IMG/VR virus record: IMGVR_UViG_3300044612_000719
Span: 33,276 to 97,275 of that record
From: a virus
Direction: 5' to 3' (one strand)
Length of the DNA: 64,000 nucleotides
Under the pieces are notes generated by a model. The model was not told the DNA's origin, ran no database searches, and was given only the letters and a program-made list of their open reading frames with translations. Positions 27,691-63,326 of the stretch are shown in pieces; the stretch's first letter is position 1; each line of letters opens with the position of its first letter. Both the position numbers and the translations under genes were made by a program.

Positions 27691-27816
27691 GCGTCACGGG
27701 TCATCTTCGGATGGCTCGTGGCGCTCATAGAGCACTGGGGTTCATCCCCTGACTCCAGTGCTGTATGAGCGCAGAGCGCTCCGCTGGCAACCAGCCAGCG
27801 CAGTCCTGAGGAGGAC
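27691..27816 (+). promoter_or_regulatory. structured leader L0
   Basis: Hairpin A is a 15-base-pair stem (27691-27705 with 27710-27724) capped by a TTCG tetraloop. Hairpin B (27724-27738 with 27755-27769) has 14 of 15 pairs. Hairpin C is CGCTGGC-AACCA-GCCAGCG (27782-27800). Hairpin D, GTCCT-GAGG-AGGAC (27803-27816), contains the Shine-Dalgarno sequence and ends 7 bases before the ATG at 27824. The same A-B-C-D order recurs before later genes. Confidence 0.75.
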
Positions 27817-27823
27817 ACACACC

Positions 27824-28342
27824 ATGAAAGCAACACGACAGCAACTACTCAATCTCGGAGCCAGCATCCTGAGCACTGCCTATGAAGGCGGGTCTTGCGG
27901 AATGGCTTCATGGGCAGTTGCCAATGGCACCTACAAGTGGGGCACGGAGAAGGGCGAAGGCGAATTGCACGGCAACGAGCACTACGCATCAGTCACCGTG
28001 TACGACACCGAAGCGTGCGAGTTGGTGGAAGACGAAGCCGAATTGGCGAAGTTGACCGATGACGATGGCTTCAATGGCTGGGGCGGGTTCTACCGCTTCG
28101 GCAAGCCACTCGTGATCAATGAGTCCATCATTGCTGACTTCATTGAGAAGATCGGCACAGGTGAGTTCAATCAGGACAATGTGCCTGACTACGGTCAACT
28201 GTCAATCAAGCGGGTGAGTGCCCTTGCAGGGTGCTACCTGTTCGGTGAAGACGCCATTGACGAATTTGAGTCCGACAATGACTGCATCGTGTCTGACACC
28301 ATCGTGCAGTTCATCCTGCTCGGTGAGGTCACATACGGCTGA
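27824..28342 (+). CDS. unknown early-operon protein
   Basis: 172 residues starting MKATRQQLLNLGASIL. It is acidic and soluble, with 'YEGGSCGMASWAVANGTYKW', 'DDDGFNGWGGFYRFGKPLVI' and a C-terminal helix-rich part. No recognised domain. I start it at 27824 because the leader hairpin D with GAGGAGG lies just upstream; an earlier in-frame Met lies inside hairpin B. First gene of the rightward operon and the first of nine with a folded leader, suggesting an early role against the host. Confidence 0.8.
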   Translation: MKATRQQLLNLGASILSTAYEGGSCGMASWAVANGTYKWGTEKGEGELHGNEHYASVTVYDTEACELVEDEAELAKLTDDDGFNGWGGFYRFGKPLVINESIIADFIEKIGTGEFNQDNVPDYGQLSIKRVSALAGCYLFGEDAIDEFESDNDCIVSDTIVQFILLGEVTYG

Positions 28343-28348
28343 TCAATC

Positions 28349-28427
28349 CCCCAGCGCCTAGGGCGTGGCTCTTCAATGAGCACTGGGGACTGTGAGCAAC
28401 CGCTCACTACAACGACCTGAGGAGGTC
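28349..28427 (+). promoter_or_regulatory. structured leader L1 (compact three-way junction type)
   Basis: The outer stem CCCCAG/CTGGGG (28349-28354, 28383-28388) encloses CGCC-TAG-GGCG and GCTC-TTCAAT-GAGC. It is followed by ACT, hairpin C GTGAGC-AACC-GCTCAC (28392-28407) and the ribosome-site hairpin GACCT-GAGG-AGGTC (28414-28427). The layout, the junction bases TG and A, and the TTCAAT loop are identical in leader L2, although most stem bases differ. Confidence 0.75.
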
Positions 28428-28433
28428 AACACC

Positions 28434-28841
28434 ATGAACACACTCACCAAACTGTACGAGATTCGTTTCTCGGGAACGGTTGAATGCGATATGGAGCCGA
28501 TCATGCACGACATTGCAGTCGCAATTGATAAGGGCACGCTGGAAGAGAGCGACAAGGCGTTTGCCGAGTTCGTAATGGCTCCACAGCGGATCGTGGTCAA
28601 GCGTCAAGGTAACAACACCTACGCAGTGGATCTGTCCATTGAGGGCGTGATCGCATTCGCCAAAGAGGTTGCCTATCGCAAAGAAAATGCGATTGACATC
28701 CGTACCGAGGAGGGCAGTTATGACCGAAACGGTTACAACTACCACACCAAAGTGATCCGTCAACTTGACACCGCATTGAAGGGCGCCAACAAGGTGCTCG
28801 CCAGTGTCGGTATCGCTCCAGTGACTTCATACTGGAATTGA
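28434..28841 (+). CDS. unknown early-operon protein
   Basis: 135 residues from the ATG at 28434, set by the leader hairpin 6 bases upstream. The start MNTLTKLYEIRFSGTVECDM and 'VVKRQGNNTYAVDLSIEGVI' indicate an alpha/beta protein; the C-terminal part (YDRNGYNYHTKVIRQLDTAL) is helical. No domain recognised. Part of the folded-leader operon, so expression should be individually controlled at translation. Nothing indicates a membrane location. Confidence 0.78.
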   Translation: MNTLTKLYEIRFSGTVECDMEPIMHDIAVAIDKGTLEESDKAFAEFVMAPQRIVVKRQGNNTYAVDLSIEGVIAFAKEVAYRKENAIDIRTEEGSYDRNGYNYHTKVIRQLDTALKGANKVLASVGIAPVTSYWN

Positions 28842-28846
28842 GTGAT

Positions 28847-28941
28847 TGAGTGACCTAGTCACTCACCCCTAGCGCCTCGGGCGTGCCGATTCAATTCGGA
28901 CTAGGGACTGGGCAAATAGCCCTCGGAGCAGAGGAGGCTCC
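28847..28941 (+). promoter_or_regulatory. structured leader L2 (compact three-way junction type)
   Basis: An extra hairpin TGAGTGAC-CTA-GTCACTCA (28847-28865) precedes the junction. The outer stem CCCTAG/CTAGGG (28867-28872, 28901-28906) encloses CGCC-TCG-GGCG and CCGA-TTCAAT-TCGG. Hairpin C is GGGC-AAATA-GCCC (28910-28922). The ribosome-site hairpin is GGAGC...GCTCC (28925-28941) with AGAGGAG in its loop. Compared with L1, stem 2 changes GCTC/GAGC to CCGA/TCGG and keeps pairing, a strong sign of selection for structure. Confidence 0.75.
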
Positions 28942-28946
28942 ATACC

Positions 28947-29483
28947 ATGAAAACATCAGAGATAAAGCAGATAATTGCAAAGGATCCGAACGCTGTGTTT
29001 CGCATTGGCGGACGTGGTCGGTACACGCACTACGGCTCAATCACCAAGATTGAGGAGAAGGTCGTGGACACCTACAGCGCATGGGGTCGTAAGTCAGGCA
29101 CCCGTGTTGATGTGCGATTCACAGTGCGTTACGAGTACTTCACTCGTGGCGTTGAGGCTCAGTTTGGTTACCCCGAGAAGTTGCCTTCAGTGATACTGGA
29201 CGGAAACTCGTGGACTAAGCCACGTGACATTGAATGGCACGTAGCGGACTTCGGTATGACCATTGAGGAGTACGTAGCAAAGACTGATGCTGAAGTGAAG
29301 GCGGATTGGCAAGCCAAGAAGGACGACCAATACGCAAAGCAACAGCAGGTCAATGCGATCATCCGACACATCAGTAGCCCAACGGTTACCGATGCCGAGT
29401 GGAACGAACTCAACGATGATCTAGAGCGACTCAGTGTTCAGACATTGCAATTAATCAATCAGAAGATCGCATCACTTGTGTGA
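28947..29483 (+). CDS. unknown early-operon protein
   Basis: 178 residues: MKTSEIKQIIAKDPNAVFRI, then 'GRGRYTHYGSITKIEEKVVD' and 'WGRKSGTRVDVRFTVRYEYF', with a Lys/Glu-rich C-terminal helical half (EVKADWQAKKDDQYAKQQQ). The N-terminal half resembles small beta-barrel nucleic-acid-binding folds by its alternation of Gly and basic residues, but I cannot name a family. Start set by the ATG after leader L2. Confidence 0.78.
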   Translation: MKTSEIKQIIAKDPNAVFRIGGRGRYTHYGSITKIEEKVVDTYSAWGRKSGTRVDVRFTVRYEYFTRGVEAQFGYPEKLPSVILDGNSWTKPRDIEWHVADFGMTIEEYVAKTDAEVKADWQAKKDDQYAKQQQVNAIIRHISSPTVTDAEWNELNDDLERLSVQTLQLINQKIASLV

Positions 29484-29489
29484 TGTGGT

Positions 29490-29597
29490 CGGGAGCATCA
29501 CGGGTTCGCCCGTGGTGCCCTCACAGTGCATCGGCGTTGTGTCGGTGCATTGTGAGGGCATACAATTGCCCGTTCAACTAACAGACCCGAGGAGGTC
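29490..29597 (+). promoter_or_regulatory. structured leader L3
   Basis: Hairpin A is GCATCACGGG-TTCG-CCCGTGGTGC (29495-29518). Hairpin B has CCCTCACA paired with TGTGAGGG (29518-29525, 29551-29558) and a longer inner stem. An outer stem CGGG/CCCG (29490-29493, 29569-29572) can close both. The ribosome-site hairpin GACC...GGTC (29584-29597) ends 4 bases before the ATG at 29602. Confidence 0.75.
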
Positions 29598-29601
29598 AAC
29601 C

Positions 29602-29856
29602 ATGGATGCAAGTATTCACAAAGTAACTGGGTTTCGGATTGAGAAGTCCGATGACCCACGACTCAAGACAATTGATCTCGTGATTCAATACGAGGATTTG
29701 TCGTTTGTTCGTTCCCAATATGAGAACGGCAGTGAGTCATTCGGTTACGCAAAATTGGAGTCCACGATCACGCTGTTCATCAGTGACACCGTTGACATGG
29801 ACGTGGTGGTGTGGCAAGCAATTGCAAACCTCACTTCCGATCTTGCCAATAGGTGA
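29602..29856 (+). CDS. unknown early-operon protein
   Basis: 84 residues: MDASIHKVTGFRIEKSDDPR, then LKTIDLVIQYEDLSFVRSQY, 'ESTITLFISDTVDMDVVVWQ' and a short C-terminal helix. Alternating hydrophobics suggest a beta-rich soluble protein. No relatives recognised. Start at 29602 is set by leader L3; longer upstream frames would run through the folded leader. Coding density and the leader support a real gene. Confidence 0.75.
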   Translation: MDASIHKVTGFRIEKSDDPRLKTIDLVIQYEDLSFVRSQYENGSESFGYAKLESTITLFISDTVDMDVVVWQAIANLTSDLANR

Positions 29857-29871
29857 GTAATCCGCAGTGGG

Positions 29872-29978
29872 CAGTCATGGCGCAAGCCATGGCGTGCTCG
29901 GAGTGCACTGATCCCCCATCGGTGCATTCCGAGGACGCAAGTCCATTCACATTCCCTAACTGAAACTTGAGGAGGTTT
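29872..29978 (+). promoter_or_regulatory. structured leader L4
   Basis: Hairpin A: CATGGC-GCAA-GCCATG (29876-29891), extendable, with a GNRA tetraloop. Hairpin B: 16 continuous pairs (29897-29912 with 29918-29933) around CCCCC. Hairpin C: GGAC-GCAA-GTCC (29933-29944), also GNRA-capped. Ribosome-site hairpin AAACTT-GAGG-AGGTTT (29963-29978) abuts the ATG at 29980. Confidence 0.78.
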
Positions 29979-29979
29979 T

Positions 29980-30696
29980 ATGGGAGCAATAACACCAAAG
30001 CAACAGGCATTCATTCGCACGATGCTCTTAGAGCGTGCTGTCACACTCGGTCTTGATGAGGCTGGTGTTGACCAGTACCTCGTAGATCAGAACGTGAATG
30101 CATTGTCAACTAAGGATGCTTCGCTCGTCATTGATGCGATCAAGAAGATTGAGATCAAGCGAGTGGGCACCGAGCACCTGCCGAAGGGTGATCGCACCAT
30201 CGTCAACAAGATCGCCAAGCCATGCCAACTGTGCGGACACACCGTGCAGATCGGTCATGGCTGGAGCGTTCAAGTTGCCAGTGGCTGGCAGACATTCCAC
30301 AAGGCTGGTGAGTGTTCAGCCGAGGTCATCGCCAAGCCAGTAGATGAGCAATCGCTCTTCGCTGATGTCAAGGATGGCTTCTATGCGTTGCAGTCAACGG
30401 GCACCAATGATCTCGTGTTCTATGCGATCAAGACCAACAAGGGCTACCACAATGCGAGCCTGAAGGGTCAACGTGGCATGTACATCGTGGTCGGCGGTCA
30501 CGCTGACGAGAAGTTGCGTGGCGAGCGCTTGGTCAATTCAATCAAGCGCATCACGTCACTCAGTGAGGATGAACGCAAGCAAGCAATGACGCTGTACGGT
30601 CAGGAGATCGGGCGCTGTTGTGTGTGCGGTCGTCATCTCACTGATGAAGCAACACGCAAGGCTGGTATCGGCAACGACTGCGCAAGCAGGTTCTAG
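29980..30696 (+). CDS. zinc-finger protein with DUF6011-like C-terminus
   Basis: 238 residues. The N-terminal helical part (MGAITPKQQAFIRTMLLERA) is followed by a first Cys/His set (KPCQLCGHTVQIGHG...FHKAGEC). The end has a second zinc finger, 'IGRCCVCGRHLTDEATRKAG' plus 'IGNDCASRF', typical of DUF6011 in actinobacteria and their phages. The N-terminal 'TPKQxAFIxxML' helix is common in phage proteins fused to this finger. Probably nucleic-acid binding. Confidence 0.82.
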   Translation: MGAITPKQQAFIRTMLLERAVTLGLDEAGVDQYLVDQNVNALSTKDASLVIDAIKKIEIKRVGTEHLPKGDRTIVNKIAKPCQLCGHTVQIGHGWSVQVASGWQTFHKAGECSAEVIAKPVDEQSLFADVKDGFYALQSTGTNDLVFYAIKTNKGYHNASLKGQRGMYIVVGGHADEKLRGERLVNSIKRITSLSEDERKQAMTLYGQEIGRCCVCGRHLTDEATRKAGIGNDCASRF

Positions 30697-30701
30697 GTAG
30701 T

Positions 30702-30807
30702 CACGTCACGGGCACACGCTCGTGGCGTGCTCACATTCCATGGGAGCGATCTCGTGGAGTGTGAGCACGCAAGTGCAATTCACAATTCCAATAGACCTGA
30801 GGAGGTC
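30702..30807 (+). promoter_or_regulatory. structured leader L5
   Basis: Hairpin A: CACGTCACGGGC-ACAC-GCTCGTGGCGTG (30702-30729), 12 pairs. Hairpin B: 17 continuous pairs (30729-30745 with 30750-30766) capped by a GCGA (GNRA) tetraloop. Hairpin C: GCAC-GCAA-GTGC (30765-30776), the covaried counterpart of GGAC-GCAA-GTCC in L4. Ribosome-site hairpin GACCT-GAGG-AGGTC (30794-30807) lies 5 bases before the GTG at 30813. Confidence 0.8.
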
Positions 30808-30812
30808 AGACC

Positions 30813-32342
30813 GTGAGTAATCAATTAGAGCAATTAAATACATTGCTTGGTTCACTGCATCGCATACCACCAGCAATCATTGCTGATCCTGCGTTGCTTG
30901 AATTGAGCAGTGCACATGACGGCGAATGCCCAGTGGAACTCGCTGTTCCGCTGTTCCCATTCCAACGTGCTGGTGTCGCTTATGCATTGAAGCAGAAGCG
31001 AGTGATCATCGGTGACGAGATGGGACTCGGCAAGACACCGAGCGGTATCGCTGTTGCGGTACAGGCAGTCAATGAGAAGCACAAGGTGCTCGTAGTAGTG
31101 CCACCATCGCTTCGCATCAACTGGCTTCGCTCATTCAAGATGTTCGCACCATGGCTCAACGTGGCTGTGGTGACGGGCAACAAGGTGGGCGCTCTGCCGA
31201 AGGAGCCAGTAGTCATCATCGGTGACTCCAACATTGACGCTTGGTCAATCAAGTTGGCTGGCAAGTTCGGTGCGCTCATCGTTGACGAGGCACATCGTGC
31301 CAAGACCGAGAGTGCTGGACGCACCAAGGGCATCTCATTCATTGCGAAGTCAATCCCTGAGGAGGGATACGTCACGCTGTTGAGTGGCACCATCATCGTC
31401 AATCGTCCGAACGAATTGATCAGCCCGCTGAATATTCTCGGCAGGCTTGACCGAGTGTTCGGTGGCAAATCAGCGTTTCGCTTCCGCTACTGCGATCCCA
31501 TTCACAATGGCTGGGGTTACGTGTACAACGGTGCGAGCAACACCACTGAGTTGAACGAGAAGTTGCGAGGCACGTGCTACGTGCGCCGTAACAAGTCGGA
31601 CGTGCTCACCGAGTTGCCTGCCAAGCGCCGTGCACAAGTAGCGACCGAGATCAGCGACAGCGATCTCAGCGCATACATGCACGCCGAGAATGACTTCCGT
31701 GACTTCGTTATCGCCAATGGCGGTGCTGAAGCATGGCAGAAGGCATCCAAGGCTGAGACCATCACACGCCTCAATGCACTGCGCATGTTGCTCGGTGTTG
31801 CGAAGGTGCCATACGTGGTGGATCACGTTGAGCAACTAGTTGCTGAAGGTGAGAAGGTCATCGTGTTCGCACATCACAAGGATGTCATCGCACGCTTGAC
31901 TACAGCACTCACTCCGCATGGCGTGGTGCGTGTCATCGGTGGCATGAGCGATGAAGCCAAGCAAGCATCAGTGGATGCATTTCAGAATGACCCCGAGGTC
32001 AAAGTGTTCATCGGGCAATTCCAATCTGCTGGTGTTGGTCTCACGCTCACAGCGTCATCGCACGTTGTGTTCGCTGAGATCCCATTCACGCCTGCCGAAG
32101 CCACGCAGGCTGAGGATCGTGCGCACCGCATTGGTCAGACGTCAAGCGTTCTCGCTTGGTGGATGATCGGCGTGGGTAATAACCCTGACATCCCGTTGCT
32201 GGACGATCGGATGTGGGCATTGCTCAACAGCAAGCACGAGGTCGTCTCCAGTGTTCTCACTGGACAGGGCGAAGACATGGGAGCCGAGGGTGGAAGCATC
32301 ACTCAGGCACTCATTGAAGCAATTGTCGGCAACGGCATCTGA
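30813..32342 (+). CDS. SNF2-family DNA-dependent ATPase/helicase
   Basis: 509 residues from a GTG set by leader L5. Motif I (Walker A) GDEMGLGKT at 67-75, motif Ia 'KVLVVVPPSLRINW', motif II DEAH at 158-161, motif III 'LLSGTIIVNRP', a C-terminal RecA-like domain with 'KVIVFAHHKDVIARL', 'VFIGQFQSAGVGLTLTASS' and motif VI 'QAEDRAHRIGQ'. It is SMARCAL1/HepA-like, remodelling forked or annealed DNA or protein-DNA complexes. A second, divergent SNF2 protein is encoded at 56517-58064. Base use looks somewhat more GC-rich than in the left half. Confidence 0.93.
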   Translation: MSNQLEQLNTLLGSLHRIPPAIIADPALLELSSAHDGECPVELAVPLFPFQRAGVAYALKQKRVIIGDEMGLGKTPSGIAVAVQAVNEKHKVLVVVPPSLRINWLRSFKMFAPWLNVAVVTGNKVGALPKEPVVIIGDSNIDAWSIKLAGKFGALIVDEAHRAKTESAGRTKGISFIAKSIPEEGYVTLLSGTIIVNRPNELISPLNILGRLDRVFGGKSAFRFRYCDPIHNGWGYVYNGASNTTELNEKLRGTCYVRRNKSDVLTELPAKRRAQVATEISDSDLSAYMHAENDFRDFVIANGGAEAWQKASKAETITRLNALRMLLGVAKVPYVVDHVEQLVAEGEKVIVFAHHKDVIARLTTALTPHGVVRVIGGMSDEAKQASVDAFQNDPEVKVFIGQFQSAGVGLTLTASSHVVFAEIPFTPAEATQAEDRAHRIGQTSSVLAWWMIGVGNNPDIPLLDDRMWALLNSKHEVVSSVLTGQGEDMGAEGGSITQALIEAIVGNGI

Positions 32343-32388
32343 CCACTGGCGCTCGGCGCCTTCATGGTCGGTGCCTGTAGCGACATCC

Positions 32389-32522
32389 GAAGCGTTTAGT
32401 CCTCACTGGACGCTTCACAGTGCATCACGGGCGCAAGCCCGTGGTGTTCTCACACTCCATTGGCATATCGTTGGTGGAGTGTGAGAACATCACCCGATGT
32501 TCAACTAGCCCTTTAAGGAGGG
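32389..32522 (+). promoter_or_regulatory. structured leader L6
   Basis: It is preceded by GAAGC...GCTTC (32389-32416) with an inner GTCC/GGAC. Hairpin A: CATCACGGGC-GCAA-GCCCGTGGTG (32423-32446). Hairpin B: 13 Watson-Crick pairs (32447-32459 with 32475-32487), extendable by wobble pairs. Hairpin C: AACATC-ACCC-GATGTT (32486-32501). The ribosome site AAGGAGGGG can pair as CCCT/AGGG (32509-32522). The 184-base gap after the helicase gene holds only this element. Confidence 0.75.
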
Positions 32523-32526
32523 GATC

Positions 32527-32766
32527 ATGAAAGTAAGTCACGCAATTAAATTATTGAGTGAGATCAATCCTGACGAAGAGATTGCTATCTCTTGGTGGGA
32601 ATCAAACCTGTTCACCATTAGTGACAATAACGAACCACTACCAGCAGACTCAGAACTGTGGCTCAAAGCAGTCTCAGTGTTTGATGCCAACGGTGGTTAT
32701 GACAGTGTCAACCAGTTGGTGTGGGATTACCTCAATTACGACATCAAGCAAGAAGGAGAGTTCTAA
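32527..32766 (+). CDS. small acidic protein, unknown
   Basis: 79 residues: MKVSHAIKLLSEINPDEEIA, then ISWWESNLFTISDNN, ending in DYLNYDIKQEGEF. Proteins starting 'MKVSxAIxxLSxxxPDEEI' occur in many actinophages and bacteria (a short alpha/beta fold of unknown function). Its stop overlaps the next ATG (TAATG), so the two are co-translated under leader L6. Net charge is strongly negative, as in several operon neighbours. Confidence 0.78.
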   Translation: MKVSHAIKLLSEINPDEEIAISWWESNLFTISDNNEPLPADSELWLKAVSVFDANGGYDSVNQLVWDYLNYDIKQEGEF

Positions 32767-33152
32767 TGAGCAACAACGAAACACGACCTACTGAGGGGTC
32801 AATCATCAACTTGGTTGACGTAGAAGGGAATCAATCAAAAATGAAAGTATCGGGAATCGGCACACCAATTGGTGCGTGGGCAATCATCCAATGGAAGGAC
32901 ACGCAACAGGAGGACGAGGTGTACATCTCGTTCGGCACGTGGAATGAGAACGAGTGGGGCGGTGAGTTTGACTCACTGGGCAACCGAGACGATGAGGTCT
33001 TCTTCTACTGCGAAGACGGCGAAGAGGAACTCAAGGCGCTCGTGGGCAGTAGCAACGAAGACTTCGTGGTCTTGTCGTACGACATTGACTACAGCATCCC
33101 ATTGGTACTCGCTGATATGGACGAGCCAGTCTTCGCTGAAGACGGGGAATGA
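32766..33152 (+). CDS. acidic protein, unknown
   Basis: 128 residues from the ATG that overlaps the previous stop. 'GSIINLVDVEGNQSKMKVSG' and 'AWAIIQWKDTQQEDEVYISF' suggest a small beta-barrel. The rest is highly acidic (DDEVFFYCEDGEEELKALVG). DNA-mimic or inhibitor proteins of phages are often this acidic, but nothing more specific supports that. Translated by coupling with 32527-32766. Confidence 0.75.
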   Translation: MSNNETRPTEGSIINLVDVEGNQSKMKVSGIGTPIGAWAIIQWKDTQQEDEVYISFGTWNENEWGGEFDSLGNRDDEVFFYCEDGEEELKALVGSSNEDFVVLSYDIDYSIPLVLADMDEPVFAEDGE

Positions 33153-33269
33153 TCGGGAGCATCACGGGCTACGGCTCGTGGTGCCCTCACAGCACATAAA
33201 TTCTGTTTGTGTGTTGTGAGGGTACAGAGTGCCCGATAAATTAGTTAATCCCTATGACCTGAGGAGGTC
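33152..33269 (+). promoter_or_regulatory. structured leader L7
   Basis: The outer stem ATCGGG/CCCGAT (33152-33157, 33232-33237) closes hairpin A, GCATCACGGGC-TACG-GCTCGTGGTGC (33159-33184, UNCG tetraloop), and hairpin B, 17 continuous pairs (33184-33200 with 33206-33222) around TTCTG. GGGTAC/GTGCCC (hairpin C) competes with the outer stem. Ribosome-site hairpin GACCT-GAGG-AGGTC (33256-33269) lies directly before the ATG at 33272. Confidence 0.8.
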
Positions 33270-33271
33270 TT

Positions 33272-33631
33272 ATGTTAGAGCCAGTAATCACGATGACCGT
33301 TGAGCAATGGGAAGAGCAATACGAACCCTTTGTTAATCACCTAGATGCGGATGCATCATGGGCAACCGATGACGCCAACGGCATCATGTTTGAGACATAC
33401 GGTGCCGAAGTTGATTATGTGTTTGCCCGACCGCTCAACCACACATGGACATATGTGGACGGCGAAGAAGGCACATACATTCTTGCTGGACGCCATCTCG
33501 TAAATCGCATCGGTTACTTCGTAACTGCGGTGCCATGGAAGGATGACTTCAACACCAAGTATGAAATTCAAGTAAGTGCCAATGATGATTATTACCAAAC
33601 AGTGTTAGACCTTGAAGGAGGTAACCAATGA
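33272..33631 (+). CDS. acidic protein, unknown
   Basis: 119 residues: MLEPVITMTVEQWEEQYEPF, with 'FARPLNHTWTYVDGEEGTYI' and 'GYFVTAVPWKDDFNTKYEIQ'. Similar 'MTVEQWxExYxPxxNHLD' proteins are found in phages of Gram-positive hosts, with no function known. Its stop overlaps the next gene's ATG. Likely soluble and folded as alpha/beta. Under leader L7 together with the two following genes. Confidence 0.76.
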   Translation: MLEPVITMTVEQWEEQYEPFVNHLDADASWATDDANGIMFETYGAEVDYVFARPLNHTWTYVDGEEGTYILAGRHLVNRIGYFVTAVPWKDDFNTKYEIQVSANDDYYQTVLDLEGGNQ

Positions 33632-33858
33632 AACAACCAACAACATACATCACCACACTTGCTGTTGAAGTAGGCATGGAAGTAGAACTACTTGTGCAGA
33701 TATCTCCGAAGGAGACATTTGAATACGCAGGCATCGTCTCACACATCAGCGAGACCGAGTTGTCAATGTGGACTACAGACAGTCCGAACGACACCTACGA
33801 GAACGAGCGTGAGATTGACATCCCACTCTCAAAGATCATCTCAGTGGACGTGTTCTGA
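33628..33858 (+). CDS. small beta-rich protein, unknown
   Basis: 76 residues: MKQPTTYITTLAVEVGMEVE, 'LLVQISPKETFEYAGIVSHI', 'DIPLSKIISVDVF'. The alternating pattern looks like a small SH3- or OB-like barrel. ATG overlaps the previous stop (ATGA) and its own TGA overlaps the following ATG, so it is translated only by coupling within the L7 transcript. No family recognised. Confidence 0.72.
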   Translation: MKQPTTYITTLAVEVGMEVELLVQISPKETFEYAGIVSHISETELSMWTTDSPNDTYENEREIDIPLSKIISVDVF

Positions 33859-34109
33859 TGATCCTCGGTGGGTACCCAGTAGTGCGCAGGGACTTGGTGG
33901 AGGCGGATCTTTTGATCCCCTCCGTCAATACCAACGAGTACTACGGGGACGAGCAACTGTCCAAGATGAAGTACATCGGCAGTGTCAATGAGCAGTTTGA
34001 AGATGACGACTCGGGCGCTTACATCAAGTTCTACGCACCTGAAGGTCATGTCGTGTATCTGTACAACATTGACTTAGATTGGATTGAAACATCGTTAAGC
34101 GAGTCCTGA
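33858..34109 (+). CDS. small acidic protein, unknown
   Basis: 83 residues: MILGGYPVVRRDLVEADLLI, 'DEQLSKMKYIGSVNEQFEDD', 'HVVYLYNIDLDWIETSLSES'. It starts one base before the end of the preceding stop (TGATG). Acidic and apparently soluble. Last gene of the L7 group; leader L8 follows within 15 bases. No recognised motif. Confidence 0.72.
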   Translation: MILGGYPVVRRDLVEADLLIPSVNTNEYYGDEQLSKMKYIGSVNEQFEDDDSGAYIKFYAPEGHVVYLYNIDLDWIETSLSES

Positions 34110-34123
34110 GAGGCTCGTACGAA

Positions 34124-34243
34124 GGGTGACATCAGCCTCGGCTGGTGTCATCCCGTGAGCACTCCCCTTGATCCGCCTTGGGGAGTGTTCACGGGGTGAA
34201 GCAACCCTGCAACACCCATCAACAACAATGATCTGAGGAGGTC
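34124..34243 (+). promoter_or_regulatory. structured leader L8
   Basis: Hairpin A: 13 pairs (34124-34136 with 34141-34153) capped by CTCG. Hairpin B: CGTGAGCACTCCCC paired with GGGGAGTGTTCACG (34154-34167, 34180-34193), extendable at its base. Ribosome-site hairpin GATCT-GAGG-AGGTC (34230-34243) is 2 bases before the ATG at 34246. It is the last leader of the series; later genes have ordinary Shine-Dalgarno sites. Confidence 0.75.
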
Positions 34244-58064: not shown

Positions 58065-58990
58065 TGCATCCACCAGGGTACAACAGAGGCAGTGGTAACG
58101 GCGTGATTGACTTGTTCATCAGTCATGTCACCAATGTCTTTGGCGTCAGTCTTGTCGTAGTTCAAGAAGAAGATACCGTCACGGAACCGTGGAAGGTTCT
58201 TTAGCAAGAACTTTGCAGATTCAATACCTGCTTTGTCGTTGTCCATCGCAATGATTACTCGTTCTGCAACGTCTGTAACTAGTTGCATCTGCTCTTTGCT
58301 GACATGCGCACCGAACGTGGCGAGGGCTTGTATTCCCCCGAATGATGAAGCGAACCTCACCACGTCCAGTGGTGACTCAACAAGGACTGCTGTCCTTGAT
58401 TGAAACCGCTCAATCCCAAACAGTGTGTGGCTCTTCTTCACGCCTGTTGGGTTGTTGTTGAAATAGTTGTAACCCTTTTCCTGCCATCCCATGAGTTCTC
58501 CAAACGGAGACACAATAGGAATAACCCATGCTTTCTTAAGCACGTTCCATTTAATACCATGTGCAAGAGCAACATCGGCGTCAAGGTGGCGCTGTACGAG
58601 TTCTCGGTGAGGTACTAAAGAGAAACGGCTGTACGAGACCCAATCAACGTCTGGCTGAAACTCAACACGTTCTGGTGCTGTTAAACGATTGATACCTGTT
58701 TCAATGAGCAACTGGTTAACTGCTGACACGCTATCAGGGTTACCTGTTAACTCCGATACAAGACCAGCGAGTGTTCCACGAGCACCGCATGAGTGGCAGA
58801 TCCATAAACCGCTCTCTGCATTCATAGACCATGAAGGTGACCCATCTGCACGACCTGTTCGCTTCTCATGAACAGGACAGCATCCCGAAATCTCACGACC
58901 GTTTGTTCGGCGTACATCTACGCCAAGTTCTAAAAGGACGCTTGCTAGATCAGTAGTACCAGTTGTCGGTGTCGCCGTCTTCATTTTCAT
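58061..58990 (-). CDS. DNA primase, zinc-finger plus Toprim
   Basis: 309 residues. The CHC2 zinc finger (C38, H41, C65, C68: CCPVH...WICHSCG) is followed by the Toprim domain 'TAVLVESPLDVVRFASSFGG' (catalytic Glu) and 'RVIIAMDNDKAGIESAKF' (DxD). It is shorter than bacterial DnaG and lacks the C-terminal helicase-binding part. ATG has GGAGG upstream. The first 41 bases overlap the end of the helicase gene in another frame. Confidence 0.92.
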   Translation of the reverse strand: MKMKTATPTTGTTDLASVLLELGVDVRRTNGREISGCCPVHEKRTGRADGSPSWSMNAESGLWICHSCGARGTLAGLVSELTGNPDSVSAVNQLLIETGINRLTAPERVEFQPDVDWVSYSRFSLVPHRELVQRHLDADVALAHGIKWNVLKKAWVIPIVSPFGELMGWQEKGYNYFNNNPTGVKKSHTLFGIERFQSRTAVLVESPLDVVRFASSFGGIQALATFGAHVSKEQMQLVTDVAERVIIAMDNDKAGIESAKFLLKNLPRFRDGIFFLNYDKTDAKDIGDMTDEQVNHAVTTASVVPWWMQ

Positions 58991-61448: not shown

Positions 61449-61788
61449 GCATCTCCTTTGCATATTTGTCTAAGTTTGCTAAGAACGCCCTCCACGGCGC
61501 TACGTCTACTGGCAGTGCCCTTCGTGAGATGTCCTTAACGAACGCCAAGATCATGCCACGGATTTGTTCATTTGAAAACCCCTTATCGGAAAGTTTCTTA
61601 AAACCTTTCATTAGGGCGGGTCCATTTACTGGGGCGGTGATTCTCTCCAGCGTTTCGGCAGGCAAATTGTCACGGAAGAAGTAAACCAAACTTCCTCGGG
61701 AGTCTTGTTTCTTCTGTTTAGGAGCAACTTCTTTTTTGTCAAGGTCTTCGCCTAAACCGATTCCCCAGTCGTCAGATTGATTTTTCAT
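61387..61788 (-). CDS. replication-region protein, unknown
   Basis: 133 residues: MKNQSDDWGIGLGEDLDKKE, 'GSLVYFFRDNLPAETLERIT', 'FSNEQIRGMILAFVKDISRR', 'PWRAFLANLDKYAKEMHVKE'. Helical, with a lysine-rich linker. Located between an initiator-like gene and the loader. Conserved-looking but not recognised; may help load the replisome. Confidence 0.76.
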   Translation of the reverse strand: MKNQSDDWGIGLGEDLDKKEVAPKQKKQDSRGSLVYFFRDNLPAETLERITAPVNGPALMKGFKKLSDKGFSNEQIRGMILAFVKDISRRALPVDVAPWRAFLANLDKYAKEMHVKEDDQPTSISIDQRLTEE

Positions 61789-62257
61789 CCATCAACCTCT
61801 GATCTACATTTGTTGAATTTTTCCCCTTCTTGATTTTATTACTCTTGTTAGTTACTCTTGATTGGGTGTCACCCGTGACACTACTAGTGGTGTCTCCCGT
61901 GACACTACCTAGTGTCTCCACAGTCACTACTAGGGGTGACTCGTGTGTCACTAGTGGGTTGTTAAAGTTGACGTAGTAGCGGTTCGTCAAGTTCTTGTTG
62001 TTGCGGGTCACACGGTGTTGCTTGACAATCAAACCAATCTCTTCCAGACGCTTCATAGATCGGATCACCGTACGGCGGTCACACCCCAACTGGTCAGCAA
62101 TGTGCTGGTACGAGGTTGTCAACTCTTGGGTGTCAGGGTGCAGGTACTGGAGCATGTGGTTCAGCACGGCATGCGAGATGTAGTCCGTAGCGATGTATGG
62201 GAGCACCCATCTTGGGACAGGTAGAAAGGGTCCACTCAACTTATTGTTTCTTGCCAT
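61772..62257 (-). CDS. winged-helix replication initiator-like protein
   Basis: 161 residues from the ATG at 62257, which has CCTGAGGAG upstream, the same purine block found in the early-operon leaders. A start at 62290 has a weak site. 'VPRWVLPYIATDYISHAVLN', 'LTTSYQHIADQLGCDRRTVI', 'RSMKRLEEIGLIVKQHRVTR' is a winged HTH like those of helix-turn-helix initiator and RepA-like proteins. Thr/Ser/Val-rich C-terminus. First gene of the replication operon. Confidence 0.83.
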   Translation of the reverse strand: MARNNKLSGPFLPVPRWVLPYIATDYISHAVLNHMLQYLHPDTQELTTSYQHIADQLGCDRRTVIRSMKRLEEIGLIVKQHRVTRNNKNLTNRYYVNFNNPLVTHESPLVVTVETLGSVTGDTTSSVTGDTQSRVTNKSNKIKKGKNSTNVDQRLMDEKSI

Positions 62258-62310
62258 AACGCTCCTCAGGTTGTTATCTAGGGTCGCCATGCTACACTCT
62301 CGCCAGCGCT

Positions 62311-62436
62311 TTTAGCACTTTCCTGATCGGGTGCTAAAGTGTTTAGAGTGTTGGGAGGAGGGCGACCTCCTCAGGACGACAGAGCGGGGGCTTTCCCTCC
62401 TTTCTCCCCCGCCCGTGTTTATGGCTCTCCTCCCAA
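62311..62436. promoter_or_regulatory. divergent structured regulatory region
   Basis: Contains a TTTAGCAC/GTGCTAAA palindrome (62311-62318, 62331-62338); GAGGAGG-GCGA-CCTCCTC (62355-62372); an alternative long-range stem TTGGGAGGAG/CTCCTCCCAA (62351-62360, 62427-62436); and GCGGGGG/CCCCCGC (62384-62390, 62406-62412). The minus strand carries GTCCTGAGGAGGTC (62364-62377), identical in form to the leader ribosome-site hairpins but with no start codon near it. It lies between divergent operons, so it should hold promoters and operators for both. Confidence 0.6.
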
Positions 62437-62452
62437 CCGCTAAACTTGTTTG

Positions 62453-62617
62453 ATGGCATCTAAAAAAGAAGTATGGGATAAACCCAATCCAAAGAAGAAA
62501 TCAGAGAAGTTGACACCTGATCAAAAGTCAGAAGCAAAGGCTCGTGCTAAAGCCGCTGGTCGTCCGTACCCAAACCTTGTTGACAACATGGCTGTCAGTA
62601 AGAAAGGTAAGAAGTAA
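62453..62617 (+). CDS. small basic protein with AAGRPYPNLVDN motif
   Basis: 54 residues: MASKKEVWDKPNPKKKSEKL, TPDQKSEAKARAKAAGRPYP, NLVDNMAVSKKGKK. The 'AKARAKAAGRPYPNLVDNM' core is shared with small hypothetical proteins of phages and bacteria. Highly basic, probably nucleic-acid binding. No clear Shine-Dalgarno; its TAA overlaps the next ATG. Starts the rightward operon after the divergent region. Confidence 0.76.
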   Translation: MASKKEVWDKPNPKKKSEKLTPDQKSEAKARAKAAGRPYPNLVDNMAVSKKGKK

Positions 62618-62892
62618 TGGCAAAGTCAGAAGCGTGGCAACGTAAAGAAGGTAAGAACGAAAAGGGTGGGCTTAACGAAAAAGGCCGTAAGTCCTACGAG
62701 AAGGCTAACCCTGGTTCAGATCTTAAGCCACCTGTAAAGAAAGAACAAGCCGCTAAGTCTAAGAAGTCTGCGGCTCGCCGTGAGTCCTTTTGTGCCCGCA
62801 TGGAAGGCATGAAGAAGAAAAACACATCGTCAAAGACGGCTAATGATCCAGATAGCCGTATCAATAAATCACTAAGAGCATGGGATTGCTAA
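62617..62892 (+). CDS. DUF6321-like basic protein
   Basis: 91 residues: MAKSEAWQRKEGKNEKGGLN, EKGRKSYEKANPGSDLKPPV, 'ESFCARMEGMKKKNTSSKTA', 'RINKSLRAWDC'. The 'AWxRxEGKNxxGGLNxKGRxSY' start and 'RxSFxARMxGM...SLRAW' end match a small family found in phages (DUF6321), probably associated with DNA or the head. ATG overlaps the previous stop and its stop overlaps the next ATG. Confidence 0.82.
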   Translation: MAKSEAWQRKEGKNEKGGLNEKGRKSYEKANPGSDLKPPVKKEQAAKSKKSAARRESFCARMEGMKKKNTSSKTANDPDSRINKSLRAWDC

Positions 62893-63326
62893 TGAAGAAA
62901 CTTGTTGATTCGTTAAAGGTTGCATTGGCAGATGCAGTGACTATGTACTTCGTTGCACATGGGTACCACTGGAACGTAGAAGGTCAAGACTTCAGCCAGT
63001 ACCACGCATTGTTTGCTGAGATCTACGAAGATGTCTACAGCAGTATTGACCCATTGGCAGAGAGCATCCGCAAGATGGATGAGTACGCTCCATTTACGTT
63101 GAGTAAGTTCACAGAACTACGCACAGTGGAAGCCAAAGAAGTTAAGCCAGAACCACAGGCAATGGCTAAAGCACTATTGAAAGTAAATGATGGAGTACTA
63201 GAGACTCTTGTCAAAGCCTTCCATGCCGCCAATGACGCTGACGAACAGGGTATTGCTAACCTACTCGCAGAGCGCATTGACATGCATGAAAAGTGGCGTT
63301 GGCAGTTAAAGGCGTCAACTAAATAG
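62892..63326 (+). CDS. Dps/ferritin-like protein
   Basis: 144 residues from the ATG in TAATG (62892). 'LADAVTMYFVAHGYHWNVEG', 'DFSQYHALFAEIYEDVYSSI' and 'DPLAESIRKMDEYAPFTLSK' match Dps: the H-x-x-H-W-N-V ferroxidase motif (here H-G-Y-H-W-N-V) and D/E of the second helix. It would bind iron and possibly DNA and protect phage or host DNA from oxidative damage. Its end overlaps the convergent 63319 gene by 8 bases. Confidence 0.87.
   Translation: MKKLVDSLKVALADAVTMYFVAHGYHWNVEGQDFSQYHALFAEIYEDVYSSIDPLAESIRKMDEYAPFTLSKFTELRTVEAKEVKPEPQAMAKALLKVNDGVLETLVKAFHAANDADEQGIANLLAERIDMHEKWRWQLKASTK

Follow-up and report, generated by a model that had tools for sequence, protein, structure and literature searches.

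A conserved structured RNA on the plus strand of related phage genomes, a candidate antisense silencer of their early ribosome-site leaders

Introduction

Small RNAs of the B11/6C type are distributed beyond the mycobacteria in other actinobacteria, and we take the family to be RF01066. Phage T4 shuts off many early messages at their translation initiation sites through its RegA protein, and the CsrB and RsmZ sponges carry hairpins with ribosome-site-like loops. According to PMC10470900, B11/6C sRNA represses by base-pairing to ribosome binding sites through a pair of unpaired, C-rich loops, and for one target either loop was enough. The SAS and ESAS motifs are found in cluster K mycobacteriophages (PMC3203893, available in part) and in cluster EF Microbacterium phages (PMC7302621, likewise), and the portions available of these two papers propose no antisense RNA for them. 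Pope et al. named an RNA or a protein, of the host or of the phage, as a possible SAS partner and left the matter open, and noted without explanation in 2011 that four K1 phages have a single reverse SAS copy with no obvious tie to a gene start (PMC3203893). The role of SAS-type leaders was still called unknown in 2024 (PMC11373665). Among the titles and abstracts listed by our literature search, which covered mainly openly available papers, there was no description of an anti-SAS RNA.

The locus described here lies in a window of 64,000 nt, bases 33276-97275 of a 97,275-base IMG/VR virus record. Like SAS and ESAS, its early leaders are repeated, over-conserved ribosome-site motifs with symmetric ends that stand before a set of genes, but their motif is CCTGAGGAGG with covarying arms rather than GGGATAGGAGCCC or GGGAAAGGACCCC. 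The candidate RNA resembles mycobacterial B11/6C in being small and structured with two C-rich unpaired loops, although here the pairing with ribosome sites is a prediction. B11/6C is host-encoded and directs strings of C at G-rich host targets, whereas this RNA would be phage-encoded, its loops are of mixed sequence, and one of them is the complement of a leader that recurs in the phage's own genome. A shut-off of early phage messages at initiation sites would also recall RegA, with the difference that RegA is a protein and the agent proposed here an RNA.

Locus and homologs

The features of the locus are collected in Table 1. GAGGAGG has a local partner, CCTCCTC, only 4 nt away, and is also part of a 14-nt arm whose partner arm includes CTCCTCC. 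With the distant arm included the predicted minimum energy is −43.4 kcal/mol, and without it −33.0 kcal/mol; in all ten distinct sequences among the homologs (below) the long-range fold has the lower energy, and all ten form the local hairpin once the distant arm is left out. The two mutually exclusive pairings noticed in the sequence-only reading are therefore both present in the DNA and both predicted as folds. That reading had also reported a leader-like motif without a start codon on the minus strand, and this too holds: GTCCTGAGGAGGTC lies at 62364-62377 with no mismatch. SAS-type leaders stand a few bp before a start codon, whereas behind this motif the first ATG on the minus strand is more than 70 nt downstream. 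At up to three mismatches GTCCTGAGGAGGTC has 11 matches in the window against 4.6 expected, a number reached in none of 100 shuffles.

Table 1. Positions in the window of the conserved element, neighboring features and predicted target leaders
Feature	Position	Strand	Remarks
Inverted repeat TTTAGCAC-N12-GTGCTAAA	62311..62338		Spans putative -35 and -10; counterparts in homologs seen by eye
-35-like TTAGCA	62312-62317	+	Seen in the window
Putative -10 TAAAGT of the RNA	62335..62340	+	TANNGT 8-10 nt before P1 in 20/20 loci
Conserved structured RNA (P1, anti-leader segment, P2 hairpin)	62350..62437	+	5′ end probably a few nt upstream
P1 5′ arm GTTGGGAGGAGGGC	62350..62363	+	Partner 62424-62437; contains GAGGAGG (62355-62361), alternative partner 62366-62372
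Anti-leader segment L3, ACCTCCTCAGG	62365..62375	+	Identical in 20/20 loci; exact complement of early-leader core CCTGAGGAGGT
P2 hairpin	62384..62412	+	Stem 62384-62390/62406-62412; loop L2 62391-62405, CTTTCCCTCCTTTCT
P1 3′ arm GCTCTCCTCCCAAC	62424..62437	+	Includes CTCCTCC (62427-62433); absent from L009
Putative second -10 TAAACT	62441..62446	+	Downstream of P1; would yield a nearly leaderless mRNA in the window
Downstream 54-aa gene (phrog_34011)	62453..62617	+	No Shine-Dalgarno ahead, by eye; next gene differs in some relatives
Divergent replication-initiator-like gene	61772..62257	-	Probable true start 62257
Ribosome site CCTGAGGAG of the divergent initiator-like gene	62262..62270	-	Also complementary to L3
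Early leader hairpin GTCCTGAGGAGGAC	27803..27816	+	Predicted target
Early leader hairpin GACCTGAGGAGGTC	28414..28427	+	Predicted target
Early leader hairpin GACCCGAGGAGGTC	29584..29597	+	Predicted target
Early leader hairpin AAACTTGAGGAGGTTT	29963..29978	+	Predicted target
Early leader hairpin GACCTGAGGAGGTC	30794..30807	+	Predicted target; ahead of SNF2-type helicase gene
Early leader hairpin GACCTGAGGAGGTC	33256..33269	+	Predicted target
Early leader hairpin GATCTGAGGAGGTC	34230..34243	+	Predicted target

The divergent gene, used as query, gave 80 loci, of which L001-L016 have the element upstream. A search of viral contigs with a loop pattern gave 17 stretches: 12 in contigs already found, three that added loci with the element (L083, L097 and L098), and two unrelated matches (L086 and L092) that were excluded; a second loop pattern gave 15 stretches, all within the first 17. 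The element is thus found in the window and 19 further viral contigs, 20 loci that comprise 15 distinct sequences over 162 nt and that come from related phages, so that they are not independent. Five loci (L018-L022) have a related initiator gene with no element upstream, and L017 was not counted among these because its contig is cut off only 44 nt upstream of the gene. Every one of the 20 records with the element has exactly one antisense copy of CCTGAGGAGG. In L009 (5775-5936) a deletion, natural or from assembly, takes away the 3′ arm of P1 together with the -10-like box behind it, and spares both anti-Shine-Dalgarno loops.

A combined loop pattern had no match in cellular genome contigs, and among the matches listed by blastn of the element against annotated phages there were only short ones with E of at least 2. 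A model (R1) built from the seven joined rows described below scores the window at 76.8 bits on the plus strand and 24.4 bits on the minus strand; run over 35 sources (704,518 bases) it recovered the window copy along with those already known from L116 (G016) and L002, and its other matches were opposite-strand shadows or had E of at least 0.3, including five stretches of G021. Rfam gave no match over the window at gathering score, and at E up to 10 over 62200-62560 it gave three matches at chance level, none of them 6C/B11. By analogy, the plus-strand RNA is best read as working like the host B11/6C, yet not as a member of that family, since it has no Rfam match.

The start of the divergent gene is probably 62257, with CCTGAGGAG ahead of it, and not the ATG at 62290, which overlaps a -10-like TAGCAT. 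CCTGAGGAG stands before this gene in 20/20 loci with the element and in 0/5 of the relatives seen without it, a distribution that kinship could also explain. Two further observations were made nearby: tandem-like repeats around CCCGTGACACTAC are visible by eye near the end of the initiator-like gene (61865-61965), and a ferritin-like gene (PF00210) lies at 62880-63326, whose DNA matches genes annotated as structural or virion protein in some cyanophage records.

Structure and strand

Setting aside L009, which has no P1 3′ arm, 19 of the 20 loci (10 distinct rows) have 14 pairs in P1 and 7 in P2. The resulting 210 pair cells comprise 199 Watson-Crick pairs and 11 that are G.U when read as plus-strand RNA, with no A.C and no mismatch. 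The wobbles lie in seven columns and every one is G.U on the plus strand, which has a chance of 1 in 128 if the two sides are equally likely in each column. For the covariation count seven of the ten rows were joined with their variable stretches removed; all 147 cells are paired, 10 of the 21 pairs have changed on both sides, and none of 500 shuffles was as good on either measure. Covariation is 0.458 against 0.256 in the shuffles (0/500 as high), and slid versions of the alignment give at most two two-sided pair changes. The loop sequence ACCUCCUCAGG, the exact complement of the early-leader core, is invariant in 20/20 loci, and the other loop, L2, reads UUU[CA]CCUCCUUUC in the 10 distinct sequences; CCUCC occurs in both L2 and L3 in all ten. 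L2 presumably resembles the 3′ tail of 16S rRNA and would then be a second anti-Shine-Dalgarno loop. On this comparison of homologs, a conserved structured RNA encoded on the plus strand is very probably real.

The earlier suggestion of a switch-like structure tied to the early leaders stands insofar as the element is structured, has two exclusive folds and is linked to the leaders, but its proposal of a regulator target site or a relic of a leader is not supported. A relic or chance copy, to which the exact minus-strand motif without a start codon would point, is contradicted by the presence of two covarying helices and two invariant or nearly invariant loops in diverged phages, and we give it hardly any credence. 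Hardly better placed, and very improbable, is a DNA element such as a replication origin or an operator of divergent promoters: the element does adjoin the replication-initiator-like gene, and an inverted repeat spans the putative promoter, but wobble-type exchanges confined to one strand are not expected from DNA symmetry. That inverted repeat is a possible operator in its own right, and an operator adjoining the RNA is compatible with the reading preferred below.

Folding by itself does not favor the plus strand. The plus-strand fold of the region has z −3.8 (1/200 shuffles as low) and the minus-strand fold z −5.3 (0/200), with similar energies, and the minus strand combines a leader copy with a strong ribosome site and no start codon. 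A functional minus-strand RNA, a sponge with the Shine-Dalgarno motifs CCUGAGGAGG and AGAAAGGAGG that titrates ribosomes or a leader-binding protein, would be the case in which the locus resembles CsrB and RsmZ. It is improbable because the pairs that are not Watson-Crick would all be A.C on that strand (11/11 cells, seven columns) and because the conserved -10-like box beside the element reads on the plus strand. The wobble pattern places the RNA on the plus strand, and the leader-like minus-strand motif is therefore best read as the complement of the leaders, antisense to them, rather than as a further copy.

The -35-like hexamer is found in 15 loci and is absent from the L011-L015 group. 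A second box, TA[AC]A[AC]T, lies ahead of the plus-strand gene in 19/20 loci, those that have the P1 3′ arm, and by eye no intrinsic terminator was seen behind P1. The plus-strand RNA could be a separate sRNA or else form the leader of the small plus operon. An unlikely explanation is that it acts only in cis, as a 5′ leader or attenuator of that operon (the 54-aa gene and its followers), its likeness to the leaders being a by-product of C-rich arms; the position of the element directly ahead of the operon, the two exclusive folds and a discrete 3′ end not having been seen would all suit this. Yet the next gene varies among relatives (by eye) while the RNA is kept, a second -10-like box lies behind P1, and the invariant part is the 11-nt leader complement and not the region by the start codon. 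A small protein was also considered, as a plus frame is open in the window, and was dropped because, by eye, homologs differ in length by amounts that break the triplet frame and L011 lacks a start there.

Predicted targets

GACCTGAGGAGGTC and its variants lie a few nt ahead of start codons between 27.8 and 34.3 kb, and as in SAS-type leaders a conserved ribosome-site motif is repeated before several genes. Compared over five genomes, that of the window and those of four relatives (in a table that also includes two or three non-leader matches), the leader arms differ (GAC/GTC, TAC/GTA, GC/GC, GAAT/GTTC, with U.G at one pair) while the core CTGAGGAGG is constant; because the arms compensate and the core stays, these leaders are best described as ribosome-site hairpins. 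By eye, further long hairpins precede several early leaders (intergenic, 28340-34210) much as ESAS precedes SAS, for example CACGGGTTCGCCCGTG followed by CCCTCACAGTGCAT...ATGCATTGTGAGGG at about 29495-29565.

Duplexes of L3 were scored against the start regions of 169, 165, 177 and 99 roughly called genes in G000, G002, G014 and G016 (the window's own genome and three relatives), and the best 5, 10, 10 and 8, respectively, all belong to leader genes. These duplexes lie at roughly −20 to −27 kcal/mol, whereas pairing with the 16S tail gives −11 to −13. L3 outscores that tail by a margin above 3 kcal/mol at many other starts too (45/169, 59/165, 57/177 and 34/99 of those called, leaders included), so that the argument for specificity lies in the highest ranks. 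In a nested cofold, which cannot form a contact inside P1, the leaders had no advantage (ranks 15-88 of 115); scoring with opening energies was added for this reason. Once the opening of both partners is charged for, the window's leader genes, seven in all, take ranks 1-6 and 8 of 115, with scores of −6.8 to −12.1 kcal/mol against an all-gene median of +3.1.

These rankings bear on another reading, in which the RNA mimics the 16S 3′ tail and blocks translation broadly, host messages included, rather than the early leaders specifically. The presumed match of L2 to that tail speaks for a general blocker, as do the conservation of L2 with few extended complements in the five genomes scanned and the many called starts at which L3 outscores the tail. 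We nevertheless regard it as unlikely, since the complement in L3 reaches beyond what pairs with the 16S tail and, in four genomes, the best scores fall on leader genes. A specific antisense role of L2 against phage genes was rejected because of the same scarcity of extended complements. In the opening-cost ranking four of the six best-scoring L2 genes are in the early region, and L2 might, on this model, cover the remainder of the early set. The genes at 32527, 32766, 34488 and 34837 are early-region genes with top scores for L2 and have no GAGGAGG hairpin.

The leaders also occur apart from the RNA. The leader core occurs 14 times in G021 (94.9 kb), in 13 cases ahead of a start codon, yet no antisense copy is present there, nor in six further leader-bearing records of 6.5-31.9 kb. 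The leaders can therefore work independently of the RNA, whose role would then be one of extra control.

Comparison with cluster K mycobacteriophages

The reverse SAS copies of the K1 phages offer a parallel. We sampled 17 cluster K phages: three of the four K1 phages plus Pixie, 12 chosen to span identity from 150 records with a homologous region, and ZoeJ. Gaps of 385, 432 and 422 nt that contain no gene hold the reverse copy in the three K1 phages; read on the plus strand, its ten bases, CCUCCUAUCC, make up the apical loop of a hairpin predicted there. The reversed core GGGATAGGAG occurs once, always in the same region, in 7/17 phages, while forward copies number 11-19 in all 17; the orphan reverse core is absent from 10/17 phages that have SAS leaders. 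The tally is seven because the reverse copy of ZoeJ is an ordinary SAS directly before a leftward gene. The region has no annotated gene in six of the seven phages and a hypothetical gene across it in Validus, and a gene is annotated across it also in many of the 150 homologous records.

With 32-nt flanks the ten bases form the predicted loop in 7/7 phages, with a mean unpaired probability of 0.94-0.99, and over three flank lengths they are at least 0.90 unpaired in 20 of 21 folds. The exception is Niklas with 60-nt flanks, and in this phage the anti-SAS bases are not the loop in two of four fold windows. The 119 cells of the stem comprise 102 Watson-Crick pairs, 14 G.U on the plus strand, one on the minus strand and two mismatches. 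In the seven phages with the exact loop the duplex with SAS is moderately better than with shuffles (1 to 9 of 60 as good), and the cluster K case therefore rests on the exact 10-nt match and its position in a loop and not on energy. The pyrimidine-rich loops UUCUCCCUUCC of three K6 phages, considered as an altered anti-SAS, were rejected, their duplexes being no better than with shuffled SAS (15, 29 and 32 of 60 as good). Other loops with no anti-SAS complement occupy the counterpart region of L122, L127, L128, L131, L132 and L133 (cluster K), which have 13-18 forward SAS cores. No antisense site was found in the cluster EF phage AnnaSerena.

In Adephagia the reverse copy lies between genes 92 and 93, in the gap 58447-58878, and late transcription is reported to start in that same gap and run to gene 35 (PMC11373665). 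All 14 forward SAS of this phage (at up to one mismatch) lie within 29,744-58,161, before genes 36 to 92, and hence none is in the late unit. By analogy, the orphan hairpins of cluster K support the reading of the RNA as directed against leaders.

Discussion

As in trans-acting sRNAs, a conserved RNA secondary structure is combined with a conserved antisense segment that matches several targets in the same genome. The computation shows the structure, its strand bias, the conservation of the loops, their complementarity to the leaders and the target ranking. In our best reading, to which we give a probability of roughly 0.55, the element encodes a phage anti-Shine-Dalgarno RNA that silences the phage's own early leaders; for its transcription, timing, repression and order of folding we infer the following course.

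The RNA, about 90-100 nt long and transcribed on the plus strand, would have a promoter of its own, located between the replication operon and the small divergent operon. Early on, the RNA would block itself through the local GAGGAGG/CCUCCUC hairpin, a fold that P1 would displace once its 3′ arm has been made, and the finished 14-bp helix would display the two anti-Shine-Dalgarno segments. One of them, ACCUCCUCAGG, is the exact complement of the leader-hairpin core CCUGAGGAGGU, and its contact with the leader could begin loop to loop at the GAGG loop and zip to a duplex of 10-14 bp. Such a duplex would cover the ribosome site and shut down the early gene set together, and the neighboring replication-initiator gene would perhaps be damped too. 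The second loop, CUUUCCCUCCUUUCU, may pair with other Shine-Dalgarno sequences.

Taken with cluster K, this leads to a broader proposal that we make tentatively and would back at somewhat less than even odds: an RNA against a repeated ribosome-site tag on non-late genes may have evolved at least twice independently, each time with a different transcription unit as its source (in cluster K it is apparently the leader of the late transcript), so that the late programme would stop translation of the tagged set. The reverse SAS noted in 2011 would then be such an RNA.

The finding provides a concrete candidate for the partner of SAS-type leaders, with a named loop, that can be tested in Adephagia and M. 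smegmatis. If the reading is true, a single RNA shuts down a whole set of genes, and the extra conserved bases of the leaders would be explained by their pairing with that RNA.
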